Assembly (NCBI RefSeq): GCF_003324185.1
Contig: NZ_PXUP01000005.1
Coordinates: 62,001 to 126,000 of the forward strand
DNA from: Faecalibacterium prausnitzii
Lineage (GTDB): Bacteria; Bacillota; Clostridia; Oscillospirales; Ruminococcaceae
Length of the DNA stretch: 64,000 bases
Direction of reading: 5' to 3'
The notes beneath the pieces were generated by a model. It searched no databases. It was not told the origin of the DNA and worked only from the letters and a program-made list of their open reading frames with translations. Every line of letters begins with the position of its first letter. Position 1 is the stretch's first letter. Positions 45,141 to 54,832 of this stretch are shown in pieces. Position numbers and translations under genes: made by a program.

Positions 45141-45428
45141 ATGGGGCAGACAAAGCCCGCCGCCGGGCTGAAGAGCCTGAACCGCGCCGCCGACACCCTG
45201 AGCACCCTGCTGGCGCAGGAGGTGAAGGAGCTGAACGAGCGGCAGAAGGCCGCCCGGCGGGAAAACACCCCCGACCCCGGGATGATGAAGGGGCTGAAGG
45301 AGGCTACCGCCGTACTCAAGGATCTGGCGGGTGTGGTAAAGACCCTGAACGATCAGGGCACAGAGCTGGAAGGGACAGAGTGCGGCGTGGTGCTGCTGCC
45401 GCCGGTGGAACAGGAGGAGAAGGAATGA
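45141..45428 (+). CDS. Phage-like small helical protein before terminase
   Basis: A 95-residue helical, charged protein (KSLNRAADTLSTLLAQEVKELNERQKAA). Position and size suggest a small terminase subunit or related packaging factor, but no DNA-binding motif is evident. AAAGGAGG gives a strong ribosome site, and its stop overlaps the terminase start (ATGA). Confidence 0.6.
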   Translation: MGQTKPAAGLKSLNRAADTLSTLLAQEVKELNERQKAARRENTPDPGMMKGLKEATAVLKDLAGVVKTLNDQGTELEGTECGVVLLPPVEQEEKE

Positions 45429-46870
45429 ACAGAACCGAGCGGGCAGTCATTGTGTGGAAGCCGCAGCCCCGGCAGCTGGAATTTATGCGCAGACCGGAGC
45501 CGGAGGCACTGTACGGCGGCGCGGCGGGCGGCGGCAAGAGCGATGCACTGCTCATCGAAGCGCTGCGGCAGGTGCACATCCCGCATTACCGGGCGCTGAT
45601 CCTGCGCAAGACCTACCCACAGCTTTCCGACCTTGTGGATAAGAGCCAGATGTACTACCGCCGGGCTTTCCCGGAGGCGCAGTACAACGCTACCTCCCAT
45701 GTATGGGTCTTTCCCAGCGGGGCAAAGATCTGGTTTGGCTCCATGCAGTACACCAAGGACCGCACCAACTATCAGGGCAAAGCCTACGATTTTATCGGCT
45801 TTGACGAGCTGACCCACTTTGAGTGGGACGAGTACAGCTACATGATGAGCCGCAACCGCCCCACCGGGCCGGGCACCCGGGTGTATATGCGTGCCACCAC
45901 CAACCCCGGCGGCATCGGCCACGGCTGGGTGAAGGCACGGTTCATCACCCCCGCCCCGCCCGGCACGCCCATTGTGGAAACCGTCACGGTGCGCCTGCCG
46001 GACGGCACCGACCAGCAGATGGAGCGGGCGCGGGTATTCATCCCGTCCAGCGTGTTCGATAACCCTGCCCTGCTGGCCAACGACCCCGGGTATCTGGCAA
46101 GCCTTGCCAGCCTGCCGGAGGCGGAAAAGCAGGCGCTGCTCTACGGCAGCTGGGACAGCTTTTCCGGGCAGGTGTTCACCGAATGGCGCAACGACCCGGC
46201 GCATTATCAGGATCAGCGCTGGACTCATGTCATCGCGCCCTTTGCCATCCCCAAGCACTGGCCCATCTGGCGCGGGTACGACTTCGGTTTTTCCAAGCCC
46301 TTTTCGGTGGGGTGGTATGCAGTGGACGAGGAAGGGCGGCTGTACCGCATCAAGGAGCTGTACGGCTGCACCGGACGCCCCAACGAGGGGCTGCGCATCG
46401 ACCCGGTGGAGCAGGCAAAGCGCATCCGGGAAGCCGAGCAGAACGACCCGCTGCTGCGGGGCAGGGTGATCCACGGGGTGGCAGACCCCGCCATCTTTGA
46501 CGAGAGCCGTGGCGAGAGCATTGCAGCCATGATGGAGCGCAGCCCGCATTTTCTGCGCTGGCAGCCCGGGGACCACACCCGGCTGGCGGGCAAGATGCAG
46601 TTCCACTACCGGCTGCGGTTCGCGCCGGACGGGCGGCCGATGCTGCAGGTGTTCAGCAGCTGCAAGCACTTCATCCGTACTCTGCCGAACCTTGTGTACG
46701 ACGAGAGCAATGTGGAGGATATCGATACCCGGCAGGAGGATCACATCTACGATGAGTGCCGCTATGTGCTGATGGAGCATCCCATCAGCCCGCCCGAGGC
46801 TTCTGCCGCGCCGCCAAGGCCGGACGACCCGCTGGAGCTGCACCGGCAGGCGCGGTTCTACCGCATCTGA
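45425..46870 (+). CDS. Phage terminase large subunit
   Basis: A 481-residue packaging motor and nuclease. Walker A is GGAAGGGKS (31-39) and Walker B is FIGFDELTHF (Asp127-Glu128). The C-terminal RNase H-like nuclease includes WRGYDFGFSKPFSVGWYAVD and HGVADPAIFDES. The start is fixed by overlap with the previous gene. Portal follows 25 bases downstream. Confidence 0.93.
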   Translation: MNRTERAVIVWKPQPRQLEFMRRPEPEALYGGAAGGGKSDALLIEALRQVHIPHYRALILRKTYPQLSDLVDKSQMYYRRAFPEAQYNATSHVWVFPSGAKIWFGSMQYTKDRTNYQGKAYDFIGFDELTHFEWDEYSYMMSRNRPTGPGTRVYMRATTNPGGIGHGWVKARFITPAPPGTPIVETVTVRLPDGTDQQMERARVFIPSSVFDNPALLANDPGYLASLASLPEAEKQALLYGSWDSFSGQVFTEWRNDPAHYQDQRWTHVIAPFAIPKHWPIWRGYDFGFSKPFSVGWYAVDEEGRLYRIKELYGCTGRPNEGLRIDPVEQAKRIREAEQNDPLLRGRVIHGVADPAIFDESRGESIAAMMERSPHFLRWQPGDHTRLAGKMQFHYRLRFAPDGRPMLQVFSSCKHFIRTLPNLVYDESNVEDIDTRQEDHIYDECRYVLMEHPISPPEASAAPPRPDDPLELHRQARFYRI

Positions 46871-46895
46871 AAAAACAGGACAGAAAGGAAAGATT

Positions 46896-48680
46896 ATGGA
46901 AGATACAAGAGCAGAAGCCCTGCCCATCGGCGCGGCAGAGGCGGCGGCTGCGCTGCAGACGCTGCAGCGCTACAAGGCGGGCAAGGCGGCGCTGGACAAG
47001 CGCCTGATCGACAACGAGTTGTGGTTCCGCATGGGACACTGGAAAAACTACCGCGACCCGCTGATGCCCGGCAAGGCGCAGCCCTCCAGCGGATGGCTGT
47101 TCAACAGCATCGCCAACAAGCACGCCGACGCCATGGACAACTACCCCGAGCCCATGGTGCTGCCCCGGGCGGCAGACGATCAGGCCACGGCGCAGGCGCT
47201 TTCCAGCGTGCTGCCGGTGGTGCTGGAACAGGCAGATTACGAGCAGGTGTACAGCGATGTCTGGTGGCGCAAGCTCAAGCAGGGCACCGGTGTTACCGGC
47301 ATCTTCTGGGACCCGGCGGCGCGCGGCGGGCTGGGTGACATTGCGGTGCGCAGCGTCAACCTGCTCATGCTCTACTGGGAGCCGGGCGTGCAGGATATTC
47401 AGGACTCGCCGGACTTGTTCCACCTCAGTCTTGAGGACACCGCCCGGCTGACCGCGCAGTATCCGCAGCTGGCAGGGCACGCCGCCGGGGTGGTGGACGT
47501 GCCCCGGTACATCCACGAGGACGGCCAGGCCACCGCCAACAAGAGCGTGGTGGTGGACTGGTACTATAAGCGCCCGGACGAGAACGGCAAATTGCGTCTG
47601 CACTACTGCAAGCTGTGCAACGGCGTGGTGCTGTATGCCAGCCAGAACGACCCGGCGCTGGCGGCGCGCGGGCTGTACGACCACGGCAAGTACCCCTTTG
47701 TGTTCGACCCGTTGTTCGTGGAGGAGGATTCCCCTGCCGGGTTCGGCTACATCGACGTGATGAAGGACTGCCAGAATGCCATTGATAAGATGAACCACGC
47801 CATGGACGAGAACGTGCTGCTGGCCTCCCGCCAGCGGTATGTGCTCAGCGATACCGCCGGGGTAAACGAGGAGGAGCTTGCCGACCTGAGCCGGGACATT
47901 GTGCACGTTGTGGGACGCCTGAACGAAGATTCCTTCCGTCCGCTGCAAACGGCGGGCCTGCAGGGCAACAGCCTGAGCTACCGCAACAGCCGCATCGAGG
48001 AGCTGAAGGAGATCAGCGGCAACCGTGACCTGACGCAGGGCGGCACCACCGGCGGCGTGACCGCTGCCAGTGCCATCGCTGCCTTGCAGGAGGCGGGCAG
48101 CAAGCTGAGCCGGGATATGCTCAAGAGCGCCTACCGCGCCTTTGCAAGGCAGTGCTACCTCATTATTGAGCTGATGCGGCAGTTCTACGACGAGCAGCGG
48201 GTGTTCCGCATCACCGGCCAGCGCGGCGAGAGCGAATTCGTGCCCTTCTCGGCGCAGGGGCTGCGCGCAAAGCCTGTGCCCGCCGTGGGCGGGGTGGAGC
48301 TGGGCAGCCGGGAGCCTGTCTTTGATATCGTGGTCAGCGCCGCCAAAAAGAGCACCTTCAGCCGCCTGTCCCAAAACGAGACCGCCAAGGAGTGCTACAA
48401 GCTGGGCTTCTTTGACCCCGCCAACGCGGATGCTGCCCTTGCGGCGCTGGAAATGATGGACTTTGAAGGGGTGGAAAAGGTGCGCGCCCGGGTGCGGCAG
48501 AACGGCACGCTGGCGCAGCAGCTGTTGCAGCTGCAAGGGCAGATGGCAAGACTGTCTGCCGCTCTTGCGCAGCAGCCCGGCGGCACCCAAACGGCGCAGG
48601 ACACCGCCGGTCTGACGGCACAGCTGCCGGTGGCGGCGGCTGCCCGTGCCATGAACTGGAACGGAAAGGAGGTGAAGTGA
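46896..48680 (+). CDS. Phage portal protein
   Basis: A 594-residue protein placed between terminase and scaffold, matching portal position and length. It has the conserved portal-like stretch WLFNSIANKHADAMDN and a C-terminal helical tail ending in Gln/Ala-rich repeats. The DNA-entry ring of the capsid is the inferred role. Confidence 0.82.
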   Translation: MEDTRAEALPIGAAEAAAALQTLQRYKAGKAALDKRLIDNELWFRMGHWKNYRDPLMPGKAQPSSGWLFNSIANKHADAMDNYPEPMVLPRAADDQATAQALSSVLPVVLEQADYEQVYSDVWWRKLKQGTGVTGIFWDPAARGGLGDIAVRSVNLLMLYWEPGVQDIQDSPDLFHLSLEDTARLTAQYPQLAGHAAGVVDVPRYIHEDGQATANKSVVVDWYYKRPDENGKLRLHYCKLCNGVVLYASQNDPALAARGLYDHGKYPFVFDPLFVEEDSPAGFGYIDVMKDCQNAIDKMNHAMDENVLLASRQRYVLSDTAGVNEEELADLSRDIVHVVGRLNEDSFRPLQTAGLQGNSLSYRNSRIEELKEISGNRDLTQGGTTGGVTAASAIAALQEAGSKLSRDMLKSAYRAFARQCYLIIELMRQFYDEQRVFRITGQRGESEFVPFSAQGLRAKPVPAVGGVELGSREPVFDIVVSAAKKSTFSRLSQNETAKECYKLGFFDPANADAALAALEMMDFEGVEKVRARVRQNGTLAQQLLQLQGQMARLSAALAQQPGGTQTAQDTAGLTAQLPVAAAARAMNWNGKEVK

Positions 48681-48681
48681 G

Positions 48682-49608
48682 ATGATCAAGGTATGTTACA
48701 GCGAGCTGGACGGACCCAAGGGGCTGAGCCTGCGGCTGGAAGCCGCCGGTCACGCGGGCTACGCGCCCGCCGGGCAGGATATCGTATGCGCTGGCGCAAG
48801 CACCCTGATGCAGGCGCTGGTGTACCTGCTGGCAGGGGAGGAGAGCGCCCGCAGCGATGCCTGGGACGAGCCGGAGGGCCCGCGCCTTGCCGTGGCGGCA
48901 CAGGCACCGGTAGCGCCGTGGGTGCAGGGTGCATTTGAACTGGCCAAGGCAGGCTTTACCCTGCTGGCAGAACGTTACCCGGACAATCTGCGCTTTGCGG
49001 ATGTGAGCCGCAGCGGACAGCAGAGCATGATGGACTTGCAGCTGTTTGCGGAAGGTGAAGCCGCCCCCGCGTTGAGCCCGGAGCAGACCCGGCAGGCGGT
49101 GGCTGCGGGCACCCTGAAGCCGGAAGCCCCCGCCGCGCAGCCGGAAGTACCGCCGCAGACCCCGGCAGAGCCGGAGCCGCAGCCGGAAACACCCGCACAG
49201 CCGGAGCGCCCGATGCTGCCGCCTCTGCCGCTGCCGGTGCAGAACACGGTGCGCAGCCTGCACGCCCGCTGGGCGGCAGAGGAGGCCGCCATGCGCCGCA
49301 GCCAGCCGGGCTTTGACCTGAAGGCAGAGCTGAAGAACCCGGAAATGCGCCGCCTGATGCAGCTGCCCGGCATGCGGGTGCAGGACGCCTACCGCCTTGC
49401 CCACTACGAGGATGCCCTGCGCACCACGGCACAGACCGTGGAGCAGGGGGTAGTGGAGCGGGTGCAGCAGCGCGCTGCGCGTCCGCTGGAAAACGGCCTG
49501 CGCCCCGGCGCTGCCGCCTCGGTACGGCCGGACGTAGCCGCCATGACCCGCGCCCAGCGGGAGGCCTTGGAGCGCCGTGTGCTGCACGGTGCACAAATTG
49601 AACTTTAA
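48682..49608 (+). CDS. Prp-type cysteine protease fused to capsid scaffold
   Basis: A 308-residue two-part protein. Residues 1-105 match Prp, the cysteine protease that trims ribosomal protein L27 in Firmicutes. The catalytic pair is His24 in GHAGYAPAG and Cys36 in DIVCAGAS. Residues 116-123 read MMDLQLFA, like the L27 cleavage motif (LQ[FL]FA). A Pro/Glu-rich linker (125-185) then leads to a charged helical scaffold (190-308) with FDLKAELKNPEMRRLMQ and a basic end. The fused scaffold would free itself by cleavage after Ala123; this is inferred. The capsid gene follows 24 bases on and carries the same motif. Confidence 0.85.
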   Translation: MIKVCYSELDGPKGLSLRLEAAGHAGYAPAGQDIVCAGASTLMQALVYLLAGEESARSDAWDEPEGPRLAVAAQAPVAPWVQGAFELAKAGFTLLAERYPDNLRFADVSRSGQQSMMDLQLFAEGEAAPALSPEQTRQAVAAGTLKPEAPAAQPEVPPQTPAEPEPQPETPAQPERPMLPPLPLPVQNTVRSLHARWAAEEAAMRRSQPGFDLKAELKNPEMRRLMQLPGMRVQDAYRLAHYEDALRTTAQTVEQGVVERVQQRAARPLENGLRPGAAASVRPDVAAMTRAQREALERRVLHGAQIEL

Positions 49609-49632
49609 CCTGACAGGAGAAAGGAAAAAAGC

Positions 49633-50631
49633 ATGATGAATTTTAACATCCAGCTGTTTGCGGACGCGCAGACCAACACCACCGGCACCATGTCGGTGGA
49701 GATGAAGACCTTTTACGAGAAGCGCCTGATCGATCAGGCGGAGCCGCGCCTTGTGCACGACCAGTTTGCGGATTACTACCCTGTGCCCCAGAACGGCGGC
49801 AAGACCATCGAGTTCCGCAAGTATGACAGCCTGCCCAAGGCCAGCACTCCGCTGACCGAGGGCGTTACCCCCAACGGTCAGGCCCTGAACGTGACCAGCA
49901 TCACCAGCGACCTGCACCAGTACGGTGGCTGGACCCCGCTGACCGATGTGCTGCAGATGACCGCCATCGACAACAACGTGGTGCAGGCCACCCGCGTGCT
50001 GGCAAGTCAGGCCGGCCGCACCATGGACAGCATCACCCGCGATGTGCTGGCGGGCGGCACCAATGTCATCTATGCCCCCAAGCTGGGCGCAGACGGTGCC
50101 GAGACCGCCGTTACCAGCCGCAAGGCGCTGGACAAGAGCTGCACCCTGACCCCGAAGCTGTTCTTTCAGGCAGCGGCGCAGCTGGGCGCAATGAACGCTG
50201 ACCCCATCGGTGACAGCTACGTTGCCATCATCCACCCCTATGCGGCCTATGACCTCAAGACCTGCAAGGAGTTTATGGAGGTGCACAAGTACGCCGACCC
50301 CGACACCATGTTCCGCGGCGAGATCGGCAAGCTGGGCAACATCCGCTTTATCGAGACCAGCGAGGCCAAAATCTGGAAGGACGACACCTGCCCGACGGGT
50401 CTTGCGGTGTTCGGTACGCTGGTGCTGGGTGCCCACGCCTACGGCGTGACCGAGCTGGAGGGCGGCGGCCTGGAGCACATCGTCAAGCAGCTGGGCTACG
50501 GCGACGACCCGCTGAACCAGCGCGCCTCTGTGGGCTGGAAGGGTATGCGCGCCGCCGAGCGTCTGGTGGAGCAGTACATGGTGCGCATCGAGAGCGTGTC
50601 CAGCTACTCTGCCACCGCTGCCGCCAACTAA
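49633..50631 (+). CDS. Major capsid protein, N4-gp56 type
   Basis: A 332-residue shell protein of the N4-gp56 family (FYEKRLIDQAEPRLVHDQFAD, YPVPQNGGKTIEFRKY, AGRTMDSITRDVLAGGTN). The N-terminus MMNFNIQLFA repeats the motif of the upstream protease-scaffold, so maturation by cleavage after Ala10 is likely. AAAGGA lies upstream. Confidence 0.92.
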   Translation: MMNFNIQLFADAQTNTTGTMSVEMKTFYEKRLIDQAEPRLVHDQFADYYPVPQNGGKTIEFRKYDSLPKASTPLTEGVTPNGQALNVTSITSDLHQYGGWTPLTDVLQMTAIDNNVVQATRVLASQAGRTMDSITRDVLAGGTNVIYAPKLGADGAETAVTSRKALDKSCTLTPKLFFQAAAQLGAMNADPIGDSYVAIIHPYAAYDLKTCKEFMEVHKYADPDTMFRGEIGKLGNIRFIETSEAKIWKDDTCPTGLAVFGTLVLGAHAYGVTELEGGGLEHIVKQLGYGDDPLNQRASVGWKGMRAAERLVEQYMVRIESVSSYSATAAAN

Positions 50632-50641
50632 GGAGGTGCCC

Positions 50642-50854
50642 ATGGCTGAAAAGAATGTGCGCATCCGGCTGTTCAAGGACAACAGCCGCTACAAGGGCGA
50701 TCTGTTCGTCAGTGTCAACGGCGTGAACTACAAGATCCGCCGTGGCGTGGAAGTGGAGGTGCCGCCCGCTGTGGCCGAGGTACTGGAGCACAGCCAGCGT
50801 CAGGACGAGCTGACCGCTGCCCGCATTGCCGCTGCGGAGAACGCGGCGCAGTAA
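50642..50854 (+). CDS. Small phage head protein
   Basis: A 70-residue protein beginning AEKNVRIRLFKDNSRYKGDLFV, beta-strand-like then helical. AGGAGG overlaps the previous stop; the ATG at 50642 is preferred over GTG 50636. It may be a capsid decoration or head-completion protein. No specific family is recognised. Confidence 0.7.
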   Translation: MAEKNVRIRLFKDNSRYKGDLFVSVNGVNYKIRRGVEVEVPPAVAEVLEHSQRQDELTAARIAAAENAAQ

Positions 50855-50863
50855 AATAAGCGC

Positions 50864-50900
50864 TGCCCGGCTGGGAGAAATGCCCCCGGCCGGGCTTTTT
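50864..50900 (+). terminator. Terminator after the capsid genes
   Basis: GCCCGGCTGGG pairs with CCCCGGCCGGGC, followed by TTTTT. It divides the module into head genes and downstream genes. Confidence 0.75.
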
Positions 50901-50919
50901 ATAAAAAGGATGTGATGAG

Positions 50920-51303
50920 ATGACCATAGGAGAGGCTTTGGAGCGTGCCGAACAGCTGCGCCCAAACTGCCGCATTGAAACCGAGACCCGGCTGCAATGG
51001 CTGCGGGAGGCAGACGCATTGCTGCGCACAAAGCTGTTTGACCGCACCGCCGCCGGGGCGTTTGACGCCGTGGGCGCAGACCGTCCGTGGGAGCAGCCGG
51101 TACAGGATGACCAGACGCTGCTGGCACCGCCGCCCTTTGATGCCCTGTACCCGCACCTGCTGTGTGCGCAGATGGATGCCGCCTTGGGCGAGACCGACCG
51201 CTACGCCGGGGAGCAGGCACAGTACAACGCTCTGTACGCAGAGTTGGCGGTCTGGCTGCGGCAGAACTACCCGCCCCGCAGCCGGGCGCAGTGGCGCTGG
51301 TAA
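50920..51303 (+). CDS. Phage-like hypothetical protein (possible head-tail connector)
   Basis: A 127-residue helical protein (MTIGEALERAEQLRPNCRIE). Size and position after the capsid fit an adaptor or connector, but no motif proves it. Weak ribosome site GGATGTGATGAG. Confidence 0.55.
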   Translation: MTIGEALERAEQLRPNCRIETETRLQWLREADALLRTKLFDRTAAGAFDAVGADRPWEQPVQDDQTLLAPPPFDALYPHLLCAQMDAALGETDRYAGEQAQYNALYAELAVWLRQNYPPRSRAQWRW

Positions 51304-51315
51304 GGGGGTGAAGCG

Positions 51316-53196
51316 ATGGTACTGGCAGACAGAATACGGCTTGCCAACACCCGGCAGCTGCTGCGGGCCTTTGGTGGCCTGAACGAGACCTACGGCTGCT
51401 CGGAGGCAGAGTACAGCGCCGGAGTGAACTTTTCCACCCGGGATTTCCCCGCACTGAGCACCCGCACCCCGCGCCGCAGACTGCGGGCATTGACCGGGCT
51501 GAACGGGATGTACCACCTGAACGGTCTGCTGACCGTCTGCGGACGGGATATCACCTATACCCCGGACGATGCCGCCGCCCCGGCGGTGACGAAGCTGGAC
51601 GCTGTGACCGACGGCCGCAAGGCGCTGGTGGGCATCGGCACAAAAATTTTGATCTTCCCGGACAAGCTGGCCTTTGATACGGCAGACGGCAGCGTTGCCG
51701 CACTGGGGGCACTGTGGACGGCAGCGGGCAAAAGCGTGACCTTTGCCCCCTGCGATGCCGCAGGCAAGACCTATCAGGTGGAGGCCTTTGGCCGGGAGGA
51801 GCCCGCCGAACCGGCAGACGGACAGCTGTTTTTAAGGGTAGAGGATGCCGACCATCCGTGGCGGTACGACAGCACGCTGGAGATGTACAGCAAAAACTCC
51901 GGCAGCTGGACGGCCATCCCGCTGGAATACTGCCGCATCACGGCGGCAGGGCTGGGCAAGCTGTTCCGGCAGTGGGACACCGTGACCGTGCAGGGCGCAG
52001 CCGCCGAGGCGGCGGGACAGAGCCCGGAGCTGAACGGAGACCAAATCGTGTATGACGTGGGCGAGGACTGGCTGCGGGTGCGCTGCACCCCACAGGGCGA
52101 GTATTTTTACGGCACACTGGTGCAGAACGCCGCCGCCGCCCAGTGGCAGAGCATGGACGGCAAACAGCACCGCAGCGTGGAAGCCGCCCAGACGGTATCC
52201 ATGGAGCGCCGGGTGCCGGAACTGGATTTTGTGACCGAGTGTGACAACCGGGTGTGGGGCTGCAACAGCAGGGAGAACGTTATCTACGGCTGCAAGCTGG
52301 GCGACCCCACCAACTGGTTCAGCTACCGGGGCATTGCCGCAGACAGCTACGCCGTCACTGTGGGCAGCGATGGCGCTTTTACCGGGGCGGCTTCCTGCAT
52401 GGGCTATGCGCTGTTTTTTAAGGAGAACACCCTGCACAAGCTGTACGGCTCCAAGCCTTCGGATTTTCAGCTTTCCAGCCTGCGCTGCCGTGGCGTTGCC
52501 AAAAACGCCGCCCGCAGCCTGTGCGTGCTGAACGAGACGCTGTATTATCTCTCGCCGGACGGCGTCATGGCGTGGGACGGCAGTCTGCCCACCAAGGTGT
52601 CCGGTGCGCTGGACGCTGCAAAGCTTGCCAACGTGCAAAGCGCCGTGGGCGGTGCGCTGGATGGTCGGTACTACCTGCACATCTCCCGGGAGAGTGCGCG
52701 TCTGTTGGTCTACGATACCGAGAAGGGGCTGTGGAGCGAGGAGGACGTCTGCTCCTGCGATATGACCAGCACCGGCGGGCAGCTTTATCTGTGGGACGGA
52801 CAGGCGCTGTGGGCAGCAGACCCCACCCGCGAGCCGGACTGGCAGAGCACCGACGGTGTGGAAACGGACATCCCCTTTGAACTGGTCACAGGCGATGTGG
52901 GACTGGACGGCACCGAGCAGCGGTACCTCTCCCGGCTGACTTTGCGGCTGGACGCTGAATGCACCAGCACAGTAGAAGTGGCGGTGAGCTATGACGGCGG
53001 CGCGTGGGAGACGGTGGCCGCCCTTGCCGCCCAAGGCCGCCGCCGCAGCTTTGACCTGCCCTTTGTACCCCGGCGGTGCGGGTCGCTGCGGCTGCGGCTG
53101 CGCGGCAAAGGGCAGATCACCCTGCGCAGTCTTGTGCGCACCATTGCCCCGGCAAAGGGAAAATTATGGGAGGAGGATGCCTCATGGCAAGCATGA
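51316..53196 (+). CDS. Phage-like large beta-rich structural protein
   Basis: A 626-residue protein with many short repeats typical of beta-propeller or beta-sandwich tail hubs (GLNGMYHLNGLLTVCGRDIT, NRVWGCNSRENVIYGCKLGD). GGGGGTG precedes the start. A role as tail or neck hub is inferred from position and beta-rich composition. The next gene overlaps its end by 13 bases. Confidence 0.65.
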   Translation: MVLADRIRLANTRQLLRAFGGLNETYGCSEAEYSAGVNFSTRDFPALSTRTPRRRLRALTGLNGMYHLNGLLTVCGRDITYTPDDAAAPAVTKLDAVTDGRKALVGIGTKILIFPDKLAFDTADGSVAALGALWTAAGKSVTFAPCDAAGKTYQVEAFGREEPAEPADGQLFLRVEDADHPWRYDSTLEMYSKNSGSWTAIPLEYCRITAAGLGKLFRQWDTVTVQGAAAEAAGQSPELNGDQIVYDVGEDWLRVRCTPQGEYFYGTLVQNAAAAQWQSMDGKQHRSVEAAQTVSMERRVPELDFVTECDNRVWGCNSRENVIYGCKLGDPTNWFSYRGIAADSYAVTVGSDGAFTGAASCMGYALFFKENTLHKLYGSKPSDFQLSSLRCRGVAKNAARSLCVLNETLYYLSPDGVMAWDGSLPTKVSGALDAAKLANVQSAVGGALDGRYYLHISRESARLLVYDTEKGLWSEEDVCSCDMTSTGGQLYLWDGQALWAADPTREPDWQSTDGVETDIPFELVTGDVGLDGTEQRYLSRLTLRLDAECTSTVEVAVSYDGGAWETVAALAAQGRRRSFDLPFVPRRCGSLRLRLRGKGQITLRSLVRTIAPAKGKLWEEDASWQA

Positions 53197-53369
53197 ACGG
53201 CCTGAGCAAGCTGGGCCTGCCCAAGTTCAGCGATAACATGGACCCGGAGGATGCCCGGGCACTGCGCAGCTATCTGTACCAGATGCAGGAGCAGCTGCAG
53301 TATGTACTGACCAATCTGGATACGGAAAATATGTCCGACACCCTGCGCAGCAAGCTGCAGGGATTATAA
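53184..53369 (+). CDS. Small phage-like helical protein (61 aa)
   Basis: A 61-residue protein. The ATG at 53184 lies after AGGAGG (53171). It is acidic and helical (DPEDARALRSYLYQMQEQLQYVL) and starts inside the preceding gene, so the two are translationally coupled. No function is recognised. Confidence 0.65.
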   Translation: MASMNGLSKLGLPKFSDNMDPEDARALRSYLYQMQEQLQYVLTNLDTENMSDTLRSKLQGL

Positions 53370-53387
53370 GAACGAAAGGAGAATTAC

Positions 53388-54728
53388 ATGGCATCCAAAA
53401 AGAAGGAGGAACTGCTGCAGCCGGAGATGCAAACGCAGGCACAGCCCGCCGCGCAGTCCACTTACAGCGCCGAGGGGCTGAACAGCCGCGCCGATGTGGA
53501 AAAGGCCATGGCAAACGTCAGCTACCGCCCCGGTCAGCAGGTGACCGATGCGGCCGACGCCCTGAAGCAGTGGCAGCAGAACCGCCCCGCAGACTACCAG
53601 AGCAGCTATCAGGATAAGATCAACAGCCTGCTGGGGCAGCTGCTGGAGCGGGAGAATTTTCAGTACAGCTACACCCGCGACCCGCTTTACCGCCAGTACG
53701 AGCAGCTGTATACCCAGAACGCCCACAACGCCAGCGCGGACGCGGCGGCACAGGCTGCTGCCCTGACCGGCGGATATGGTTCCAGCTATGCCACCAGTGC
53801 GGCGCAGCAGGCCTATCAGCAGCAGATCGGCGGGCTGGCCAGCGCCATCCCCACCCTGTACAATCTGGCGCTGGATACCTACCAGAGCGGCGGCGAGGAG
53901 CTGGTGAACCGGCTGGACCAACTGAACGGACAGGAGCAGAACGCCCAGACCCTGTACGACCGTCAGCTGCAGGACTACTACACCCAATTGCAGCAGAAAG
54001 GCGAGGCTTACAACGACGCCTATGCCAAGGACTACGGCCAGTATCAGGAGCACCTGAACCGGCTGGACACCCTGCACGGCTACTACACCGCGCAGGAGCA
54101 GGCGGAAATCAGCCAGCGCCAGCAGACTTTCAATAACATCATGACGGTGCTGGGCGTCATCGGGGACGTGGTGCAGCTGGCCATTACCGGCACCACCGGT
54201 CTGGGCACGTTGGCGGGCAGCCTGCTGAACACCGGGTACAACATCTACTCCGGCAACCGCGCCTACGAGGCCGAGCGCGCCGACACCCAGTGGAGCCAGC
54301 AGATGCAGGAAAAGCAGCGGCAGGACGCACTGACCCAGCAGCAGTACGATAACACCGCCAGCGAGCGCGCCTATCAGGACGCGCTGAAACAGCAGGCCTT
54401 CAACAACAATGTGACTACCCAGAAGCTGAATATCGCCAAGGGCGAGTGGGCGCTGAAGCAGGCTAACGCCCAGCAGAAGGCCGCACAGGCCGCCAGCAAG
54501 GCAGCGGCTGCGAGGACAAAGTCCGGCAGCTCCAGCAGCGGAAAGGCCACCGGCAGCAGCGGTTCTGCCTCCGGCGGCAGCCGCAGCGCCGTCAGCGCCG
54601 GGGTGCCCTACACGGCAGCGCTGCTGCGCAGTCAGGGCAAGAACGATGTAGCCATCACCTCCGCTCTGCGGCAGGAGGGCTATACCCCCGCCCAGATCGC
54701 AAAGATCCTGCAGGAGATGAATAAATAA
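53388..54728 (+). CDS. Phage-like glutamine-rich internal/ejection-type protein
   Basis: A 446-residue protein of low-complexity Gln/Ala/Tyr coiled segments. A central hydrophobic stretch (IMTVLGVIGDVVQLAITGTTGLGTLAGSLL split, about 247-280) could enter a membrane. The Ser/Gly-rich linker (about 375-405) and small C-terminal helical domain complete it. The layout resembles internal virion or DNA-ejection proteins of podoviruses; this is inference. Confidence 0.6.
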   Translation: MASKKKEELLQPEMQTQAQPAAQSTYSAEGLNSRADVEKAMANVSYRPGQQVTDAADALKQWQQNRPADYQSSYQDKINSLLGQLLERENFQYSYTRDPLYRQYEQLYTQNAHNASADAAAQAAALTGGYGSSYATSAAQQAYQQQIGGLASAIPTLYNLALDTYQSGGEELVNRLDQLNGQEQNAQTLYDRQLQDYYTQLQQKGEAYNDAYAKDYGQYQEHLNRLDTLHGYYTAQEQAEISQRQQTFNNIMTVLGVIGDVVQLAITGTTGLGTLAGSLLNTGYNIYSGNRAYEAERADTQWSQQMQEKQRQDALTQQQYDNTASERAYQDALKQQAFNNNVTTQKLNIAKGEWALKQANAQQKAAQAASKAAAARTKSGSSSSGKATGSSGSASGGSRSAVSAGVPYTAALLRSQGKNDVAITSALRQEGYTPAQIAKILQEMNK

Positions 54729-54735
54729 GAGAAAA

Positions 54736-54780
54736 GGCACCCCGGCAAAGCAGCTGCTTTGCCGGGGTGCCGTACTTTTT
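54736..54780 (+). terminator. Terminator of the phage-like module
   Basis: A perfect 18-base inverted repeat with no loop spacer (54736-54753 with 54754-54771) is followed by GTACTTTTT. Confidence 0.87.
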
Positions 54781-54800
54781 GTAGTATCCTGCCAAAAAGA

Positions 54801-54832
54801 AAAAGTCCGCTGTTCAAAACAGCGGACTTTTT
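54801..54832 (-). terminator. Terminator of the tRNA unit (minus strand)
   Basis: AAAAGTCCGCTGTT and AACAGCGGACTTTT form a stem. On the minus strand a T-rich tract follows, just after tRNA-His. Confidence 0.83.

Follow-up and report, generated by a model that had tools for sequence, protein, structure and literature searches.

Our analysis of a 64,000-nucleotide stretch of Faecalibacterium prausnitzii DNA (assembly GCF_003324185.1, contig NZ_PXUP01000005.1, positions 62,001 to 126,000 of the forward strand; hereafter the window, from whose first letter coordinates are counted) suggests that a gene-transfer agent (GTA) of this bacterium encodes its own protease for head maturation. The open reading frame (ORF) at 48682-49608 is gene 4 of FpGTA I, a ten-gene Faecalibacterium GTA locus and no ordinary prophage, and by sequence and predicted fold it encodes a Prp-type cysteine protease, here fused to the head scaffold. 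Sites of the L27 type, LQ.F/A (the slash marking the predicted cut), lie at the fusion junction and at the N-terminus of the capsid protein. We give a probability of about 0.8 to gene 4 serving FpGTA I as its protease for head maturation, and the particle probably matures without help from the host. FpGTA I was published in January 2026 by Borodovich et al. (PMC12946183) as ten genes spanning about 10 kb; the novelty therefore lies in the protease and not in the element. That account, which concerns the same element in the same genus, calls the gene product 'head scaffolding', and its main text contains neither 'protease' nor 'Prp' nor 'cleav'; the protease domain, the cut sites and the Prp-less host with a short L27 are additions made here. 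Prp is likewise known, and Prp genes of phages are already annotated in GenBank as 'peptidase' or 'ribosomal protein'. Among the matches listed in a literature search of limited depth, we recognised no account of a Prp encoded by a phage or GTA and directed at head proteins, or of a Prp-scaffold fusion.

Residues 13-103 of gene 4 match the Pfam family Peptidase_Prp (PF04327) with an E-value of 1.4e-11 and 44.9 bits, against a curated cut-off of 27, and residues 190-308 match phrog_13908 (E 1.1e-18), a phage family of unknown function. A first-pass annotation, made from the letters alone, had read the 308-residue product as a Prp-type protease joined to a scaffold, and had pointed to His24, Cys36, MMDLQLFA at residues 116-123 and a capsid N-terminus reading MMNFNIQLFA; the two family matches bear out the fusion, and all four features are present as described. 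In a phmmer search of PDB sequences, His24, Asp33 and Cys36 aligned with His22, Asp31 and Cys34 of Staphylococcus aureus Prp (4peo), residues whose roles are described in PMC9405229. In an AlphaFold2 model built from 20 sequences, the Prp domain is confident apart from residues 21-30, the junction and linker are disordered and the scaffold is helical. Foldseek matched the model to 14 PDB chains with E-values under 1e-3 and TM-scores (target) of 0.72-0.82, substrate-bound Prp structures included. The matches named Prp are from S. aureus (7kld, 7jvs and 4peo); the streptococcal 2g0i/2g0j and 2idl, labelled 'hypothetical', also match the Prp sequence profile, and 1s12 (TM1457) is presumably a Prp homologue. 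The first-pass annotation would have been refuted by a structure prediction that keeps His24 and Cys36 apart; these structural matches and the alignment with S. aureus Prp speak against that, though indirectly. Sequence, catalytic residues and modelled fold all place gene 4 in Prp (PF04327 / MEROPS C108), and it appears to have the fold, the His/Cys/Asp residues and the site preference in common with bacterial Prp.

The capsid protein begins MMNFNIQLFA at 49633. The coding pattern of the site, RAYNTNCARYTNTTYGCN, has three matches in the 3.03-Mb genome and none for a reversed control, and two of the three are the junction and capsid sites. Within the genus, His24, Cys36, L119, Q120 and F122 are invariant in 20 aligned members (also in an alignment of 15), and all 11 capsids compared keep Q7, F9 and A10, although their leaders vary in length and sequence. 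Across 10 close pairs, dN/dS within gene 4 is lowest in the Prp domain (0.057), followed by the junction (0.07), the scaffold (0.10) and the linker (0.27). Prp is a separate ORF in five loci of the genus (L007, L008, L026, L029 and L032). The scaffold leaders end in DLQLF/G, ELQQF/A, ELQLF/G or NLQLF/G in four of these, and L032 has the scaffold site in a weak form only, WLHRF/G; these leaders indicate the same kind of site near the scaffold N-terminus, whether Prp is fused or not.

Relatives among viruses point in the same direction. IMG/VR holds 268 stretches that encode a related capsid, and we analysed the best 80, at least nine of which (L174-L182) are FpGTA-like. A strict [LIV]Q.F[AGS] site stands at the capsid N-terminus in 62 of these 80; on reading the remaining 18, we found a variant in 16 (for example NLQLLA, NLRLFD or NLQWFT) and none in two. 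Among the 62 loci with 2.5 kb or more of sequence before the capsid gene, 58 have a Prp gene within 2.6 kb upstream of it, as do 51 of 55 when seven FpGTA-like loci are left out. The 89 loci with Prp near the capsid gene comprise 39 fused and 50 split arrangements. The fused ones come from 20 Faecalibacterium genome loci, eight FpGTA-like viral contigs and 11 other viral contigs; among viral loci, 19 are fused and 47 split. A search for such fusions across Firmicute phages had been proposed in the first-pass annotation; among the capsid relatives, 11 stand outside FpGTA-like loci, all with the strict junction site, which is present in all 39 fused loci. In the split loci, a strict site lies near the scaffold start in 33 of 50, and 12 more show a variant on reading. 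Both His and Cys are kept in all 97 Prp profile hits under E 1e-3, and Asp in 94, in a set that mixes phage, cassette and some host Prps and was gathered by a profile that itself favours hits bearing His and Cys. The capsid and scaffold sites also covary: 32 pairs from capsids under 80% identical (mis-extracted scaffold sites of L171 and L209 included) share 138 identities, against 117.1 (sd 3.3) in shuffles that ignore relatedness, and 0 of 5000 shuffles reach this value. At this 80% cut P3, P2 and P1' stand out singly, with 2 and 6 of 2000 shuffles for P3 and P1', respectively. The capsid tree requires at least three changes between fused and split arrangements. Related capsids, about 31-33% identical, occur in Bacillus phage Page and Paenibacillus phage API480, with no Prp match in the fetched stretch and no site at either N-terminus.

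A second head module shows a similar arrangement. In four siphophages picked from the 30 GenBank records that matched (phiFL3A, PLgT-1, Krappator149 and BL3), a Prp gene lies beside the portal gene, and all four have the LQ.FA site on both scaffold and capsid. Their gene order is portal, Prp, minor head protein, scaffold and capsid; they share with FpGTA the portal-adjacent Prp-type gene and the paired sites, and differ by the unfused Prp and by the other head module. The four were absent among the organisms listed in the search for relatives. Their Prp is annotated 'peptidase' or 'ribosomal protein' or is unnamed. In PLgT-1, phiFL3A and phiFL3B (H90, H101 and H103), Prp is filed in GenBank as 'ribosomal protein', a label that masks proteases. 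In Oenococcus phage Krappator149 (L302:6158-7606), two genes are annotated major head protein, and the cut site is found at the start of the second only. Taken together, we lean, with moderate confidence, towards regarding phage Prp as a distinct and widespread class of head-maturation protease in Bacillota, with paired LQ.F/A sites, present in at least two head modules, fused to scaffold more than once, and kept by a GTA in the Prp-less Faecalibacterium.

Staphylococcal phage 80alpha provides a close comparison. There, the Prp of the host cleaves both capsid and scaffold at an F/A bond (PMC5744158), and FpGTA resembles 80alpha in having an L27-like site on both proteins. Unlike 80alpha, which encodes no such protease and relies on that of the host, FpGTA has a cassette-encoded, scaffold-fused Prp, and no host Prp was found in the genome searched. 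The precursor would consist of an N-terminal Prp cysteine protease, an LQLF/A site and then a helical scaffold, and the scaffold part may co-assemble with capsid protein, carrying many copies of Prp inside or beside the procapsid. Prp would then cut F122/A123, separating itself from the scaffold, and F9/A10 of the capsid protein, removing the leader; DNA packaging would afterwards expel the scaffold. The cutting itself, in cis or in trans, its timing and its place, as well as scaffold release and capsid trimming, are what we infer from the anatomy of the operon and from 80alpha.

It could be argued that the Prp domain has been kept for assembly, as a chaperone, and that the role of the LQ.F leader is in folding or in capsid contact and not in cleavage. 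In 80alpha, phages with uncleavable capsid or scaffold are still viable, and removal of the scaffold leader is not tolerated, so that the scaffold N-terminus is required for assembly and its cleavage is not (PMC5744158); Hotinger et al. devote a section to Prp as a chaperone of ribosomal proteins. A pure chaperone would have no need of the His and Cys kept in all 97 profile hits, with the bias of the profile already mentioned; moreover, the Prp domain is the most constrained part of gene 4, and the two sites covary at P3 and P1', as expected for shared substrates. We regard this alternative as unlikely, although not negligible.

A number of observations weigh against the reading of gene 4 as a head-maturation protease. 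The viability of 80alpha with either cut blocked means that the function of the cuts may be subtle or dispensable, and the passages found on liquid chromatography-mass spectrometry in PMC12946183 do not discuss N-termini. In the model, the active-site loop is weakly defined (mean pLDDT of 67 for residues 21-30), and the cut site falls in a stretch, residues 114-126, with pLDDT under 50. The site pattern has 82 matches in 22 genomes of the genus against 9 for the reversed control; 39 of the 82 lie inside cassettes by hand count, and the 43 outside exceed the control, which makes the pattern alone unspecific. In genome G028 (L051:10444-10974), the ORF stops at 177 residues, after the junction, and the scaffold continues in another frame, owing either to a natural split or to an assembly error. 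Among relatives, four of the 62 loci with sufficient upstream sequence have no nearby Prp, one of them (L207) having Prp about 6 kb upstream; five split loci (L163, L171, L218, L219 and L250) have no visible scaffold site, and MT835662 has a Prp-like ORF with a capsid leader reading NLF/D and no clear scaffold site. As to covariation, P1, P4 and P5 are singly unremarkable at the 80% cut, and shared ancestry between loci is left in the comparison.

The element might also be an ordinary or decaying prophage fragment and not a maintained GTA operon, as seven of its ten genes match phage families in a PHROG scan and related viral contigs reach about 50 kb. The evidence makes this very improbable. 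The cassette, at 45141-54728 and about 10 kb long, includes the small and large terminase subunits (TerS and TerL), portal, scaffold and capsid, in agreement with FpGTA I. We fetched 20 loci of the genus around Prp matches, out of 32 matches; the complete ten-gene set is found in 16 of the 20, the downstream chromosomal neighbours are the same genes in 12, and purifying selection on gene 4 is strong. The best-matching named genomes are those of F. prausnitzii APC923/51-1 (98%) and Faecalibacterium sp. I4-1-79 (96%), the others reaching at most 75%. In the comparison of the 20 loci, the queries for terL and the 61-residue gene were off by one base and hence frame-shifted, and identities for these two are rough. 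A comparison of the ten ORFs with PHROGs returned no integrase or replication gene, and no phage genes were recognised on either side when the flanking ORFs were read by eye. For FpGTA, PMC12946183 reports particles, proteomics and random DNA of 8.4-8.9 kb; the random packaging concerns Faecalibacterium in faecal viromes, and the particles of F. prausnitzii ATCC 27766, another strain than that of the window, give a DNA band of about 9 kb. The published part of this evidence largely refutes a mere prophage fragment. When the first-pass annotation wrote of a phage module carrying its own protease, the self-encoded Prp with paired sites in one operon stood, and the module proved to be the published GTA operon.

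Bacterial Prp is made as a separate protein of about 105 residues, is encoded between L21 and L27, and matures the ribosome (PMC9405229). Gene 4 differs from it in lacking an L27 substrate: it lies in the GTA cassette and not between rplU and rpmA beside a leadered L27. In this genome L27 follows rplU directly, without an intervening prp, and starts MAHKKG with no leader. A genome-wide search gave gene 4 as the sole Prp match (47.4 bits); among the control genomes of that search, E. coli had none. A Prp match was present in 30 of 31 genomes of the genus, including all 22 of high quality, and in the genus no Prp was found outside such cassettes. L27 is short and leaderless in all 24 readable loci of the 27 fetched. 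The first-pass annotation had suggested that the protease could also process host L27, an idea that fails for this host, given its short leaderless L27, and host L27 was rejected as a substrate. The pattern did not lead us to other substrates either. The third match of RAYNTNCARYTNTTYGCN in the genome is antisense to a 488-residue ORF, helicase-like by eye, and in the 13 of the 43 outside matches that we read, this one included, we saw no convincing N-terminal leader; most lie deep within a frame, have no start close by or face a longer frame on the other strand. One such match, L287 (G021:C8:20240), reads MQDLQLFAEKGREKFV in a 70-residue frame opposite a 592-residue frame and is probably due to chance. 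That the protease acts on the host, replacing the missing Prp on L27 or on some other protein, has next to no likelihood: gene 4 is the only Prp match and is kept across the genus, and the pattern exceeds its control outside the cassettes, but L27 has no leader, the third match in this genome runs antisense to a longer ORF, none of the matches read is a convincing leader, and the protease sits fused to scaffold in a head module.

Beyond the genus, 30 L27 loci from the 195 genomes with a match in the GTDB family agreed throughout: all 19 with a Prp match have a long L27 and all 11 that lack one have a short L27, which suggests that the two were lost or gained jointly. We rejected, as a general rule, the idea that only phages of Prp-less hosts carry a Prp. 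Genomes G225, G227 and G229, for which completeness and contamination are not stated, contain related prophages with Prp in hosts having their own Prp beside a long L27, so loss from the host does not suffice to explain why prophages carry Prp. In G226 (L164), the host has Prp and a long L27, and the prophage has both sites and no recognisable Prp; a 103-residue ORF at the place of Prp (L164:5179-5487) shows no significant Prp similarity (hhalign probability of 13.6). An origin of the FpGTA Prp from a host prp gene is not favoured, since it groups with phage and not with host Prps, in a tree of few columns with most forks unresolved.

The features of the cassette are collected in Table 1; the start of gene 2 was placed by eye at the ATGA overlap. 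A GC-rich hairpin of 16 pairs (54736-54771) stands directly behind the last gene, and a second (54800-54832) precedes a tRNA-His/tRNA-Arg pair; both are likely terminators, although a scan finds about as many hairpins in shuffled sequence.

Table 1. Genes and sites of the FpGTA I cassette in the window.
Feature	Position	Strand	Evidence
Gene 1, putative terminase small subunit, 95 aa	45141..45428	+	ATGA overlap with terL; first gene in most fetched genus loci; no significant PHROG match, the TerS name following the operon description in PMC12946183
Gene 2, terminase large subunit	45425..46870	+	phrog_979, E 3.6e-62, residues 114-354 of the longer ORF 45098-46870
Gene 3, portal protein, P22 type, 594 aa	46896..48680	+	PF16510, E 3.3e-32; phrog_156, E 5.6e-79
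Gene 4, Prp-type cysteine protease (by sequence and model) fused to scaffold, 308 aa	48682..49608	+	PF04327; phrog_13908; structural model; Foldseek
Catalytic stretch His24...Asp33..Cys36 (HAGYAPAGQDIVC)	48751..48789	+	phmmer alignment with SaPrp 4peo; invariant in 20 sequences
Predicted internal cut site MMDLQLF/A, residues 116-123, protease-scaffold junction	49027..49050	+	strict motif in 39/39 fused loci
Variable Pro/Glu-rich linker, about residues 125-183	49054..49230	+	dN/dS 0.27; pLDDT block means under 60, residues 121-180
Helical scaffold domain, residues 184-308	49231..49605	+	helices in model; phrog_13908; 'head scaffolding' of FpGTA I
Gene 5, major capsid protein, 332 aa	49633..50631	+	phrog_1357 major head protein, E 2.4e-84; PF25209, E 4.4e-11
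Predicted cut site NIQLF/A, capsid leader residues 5-10	49645..49662	+	Q7, F9 and A10 invariant in 11 genus capsids
Gene 6, conserved 72-aa protein	50636..50854	+	phrog_15239, E 7.9e-23; kept in cassette
Gene 7, 127-aa protein	50920..51303	+	phrog_12105, E 1.7e-23
Gene 8, 626-aa protein	51316..53196	+	phrog_511 'internal virion protein', E 5.7e-48
Gene 9, 61-aa protein	53184..53369	+	something conserved here in most loci, by a query shifted by one base
Gene 10, 446-aa protein	53388..54728	+	kept in cassette; no significant family match

Two genomes, G012 (L039) and G015 (L044), have a second, divergent cassette, with a capsid 68-72% identical and a fused Prp-scaffold of 450-472 residues; neither terS nor the 61-residue gene was found in these cassettes. 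In the capsid tree the two loci (fetched again as L162 and L161, respectively) group with phage sequences, and they are possibly prophage cousins of FpGTA. Records from human faeces named 'Bacteriophage sp.' (H1-H6, H8-H11) look like pieces of FpGTA filed as viruses, and so do the IMG/VR contigs L174-L182, of 4-15 kb.

Proteases made as part of a scaffold, or together with it, and acting inside the procapsid are familiar from the assemblin-scaffold of herpesviruses and from C/Nu3 of phage lambda; both are of the serine type and unrelated to the Prp fold. If the reading proposed here is true, the Prp-scaffold fusion would be a cysteine-protease counterpart of the herpesvirus protease-scaffold. 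Prp has earlier been seen as a host enzyme borrowed by a staphylococcal phage, and here it is encoded by the particle and fused to its scaffold. Read across phages, the paired sites would amount to a naturally occurring catalogue of the sequences that Prp accepts, of interest for its use as a target of antibiotics, and a genus with short L27 and no Prp of its own separates the phage role of the enzyme from its ribosome role. FpGTA belongs to one of the commonest genera of the human gut, and with a protease activity, a predicted cut site and a particle-off mutant for the scaffold gene, the role of its particles would become testable.

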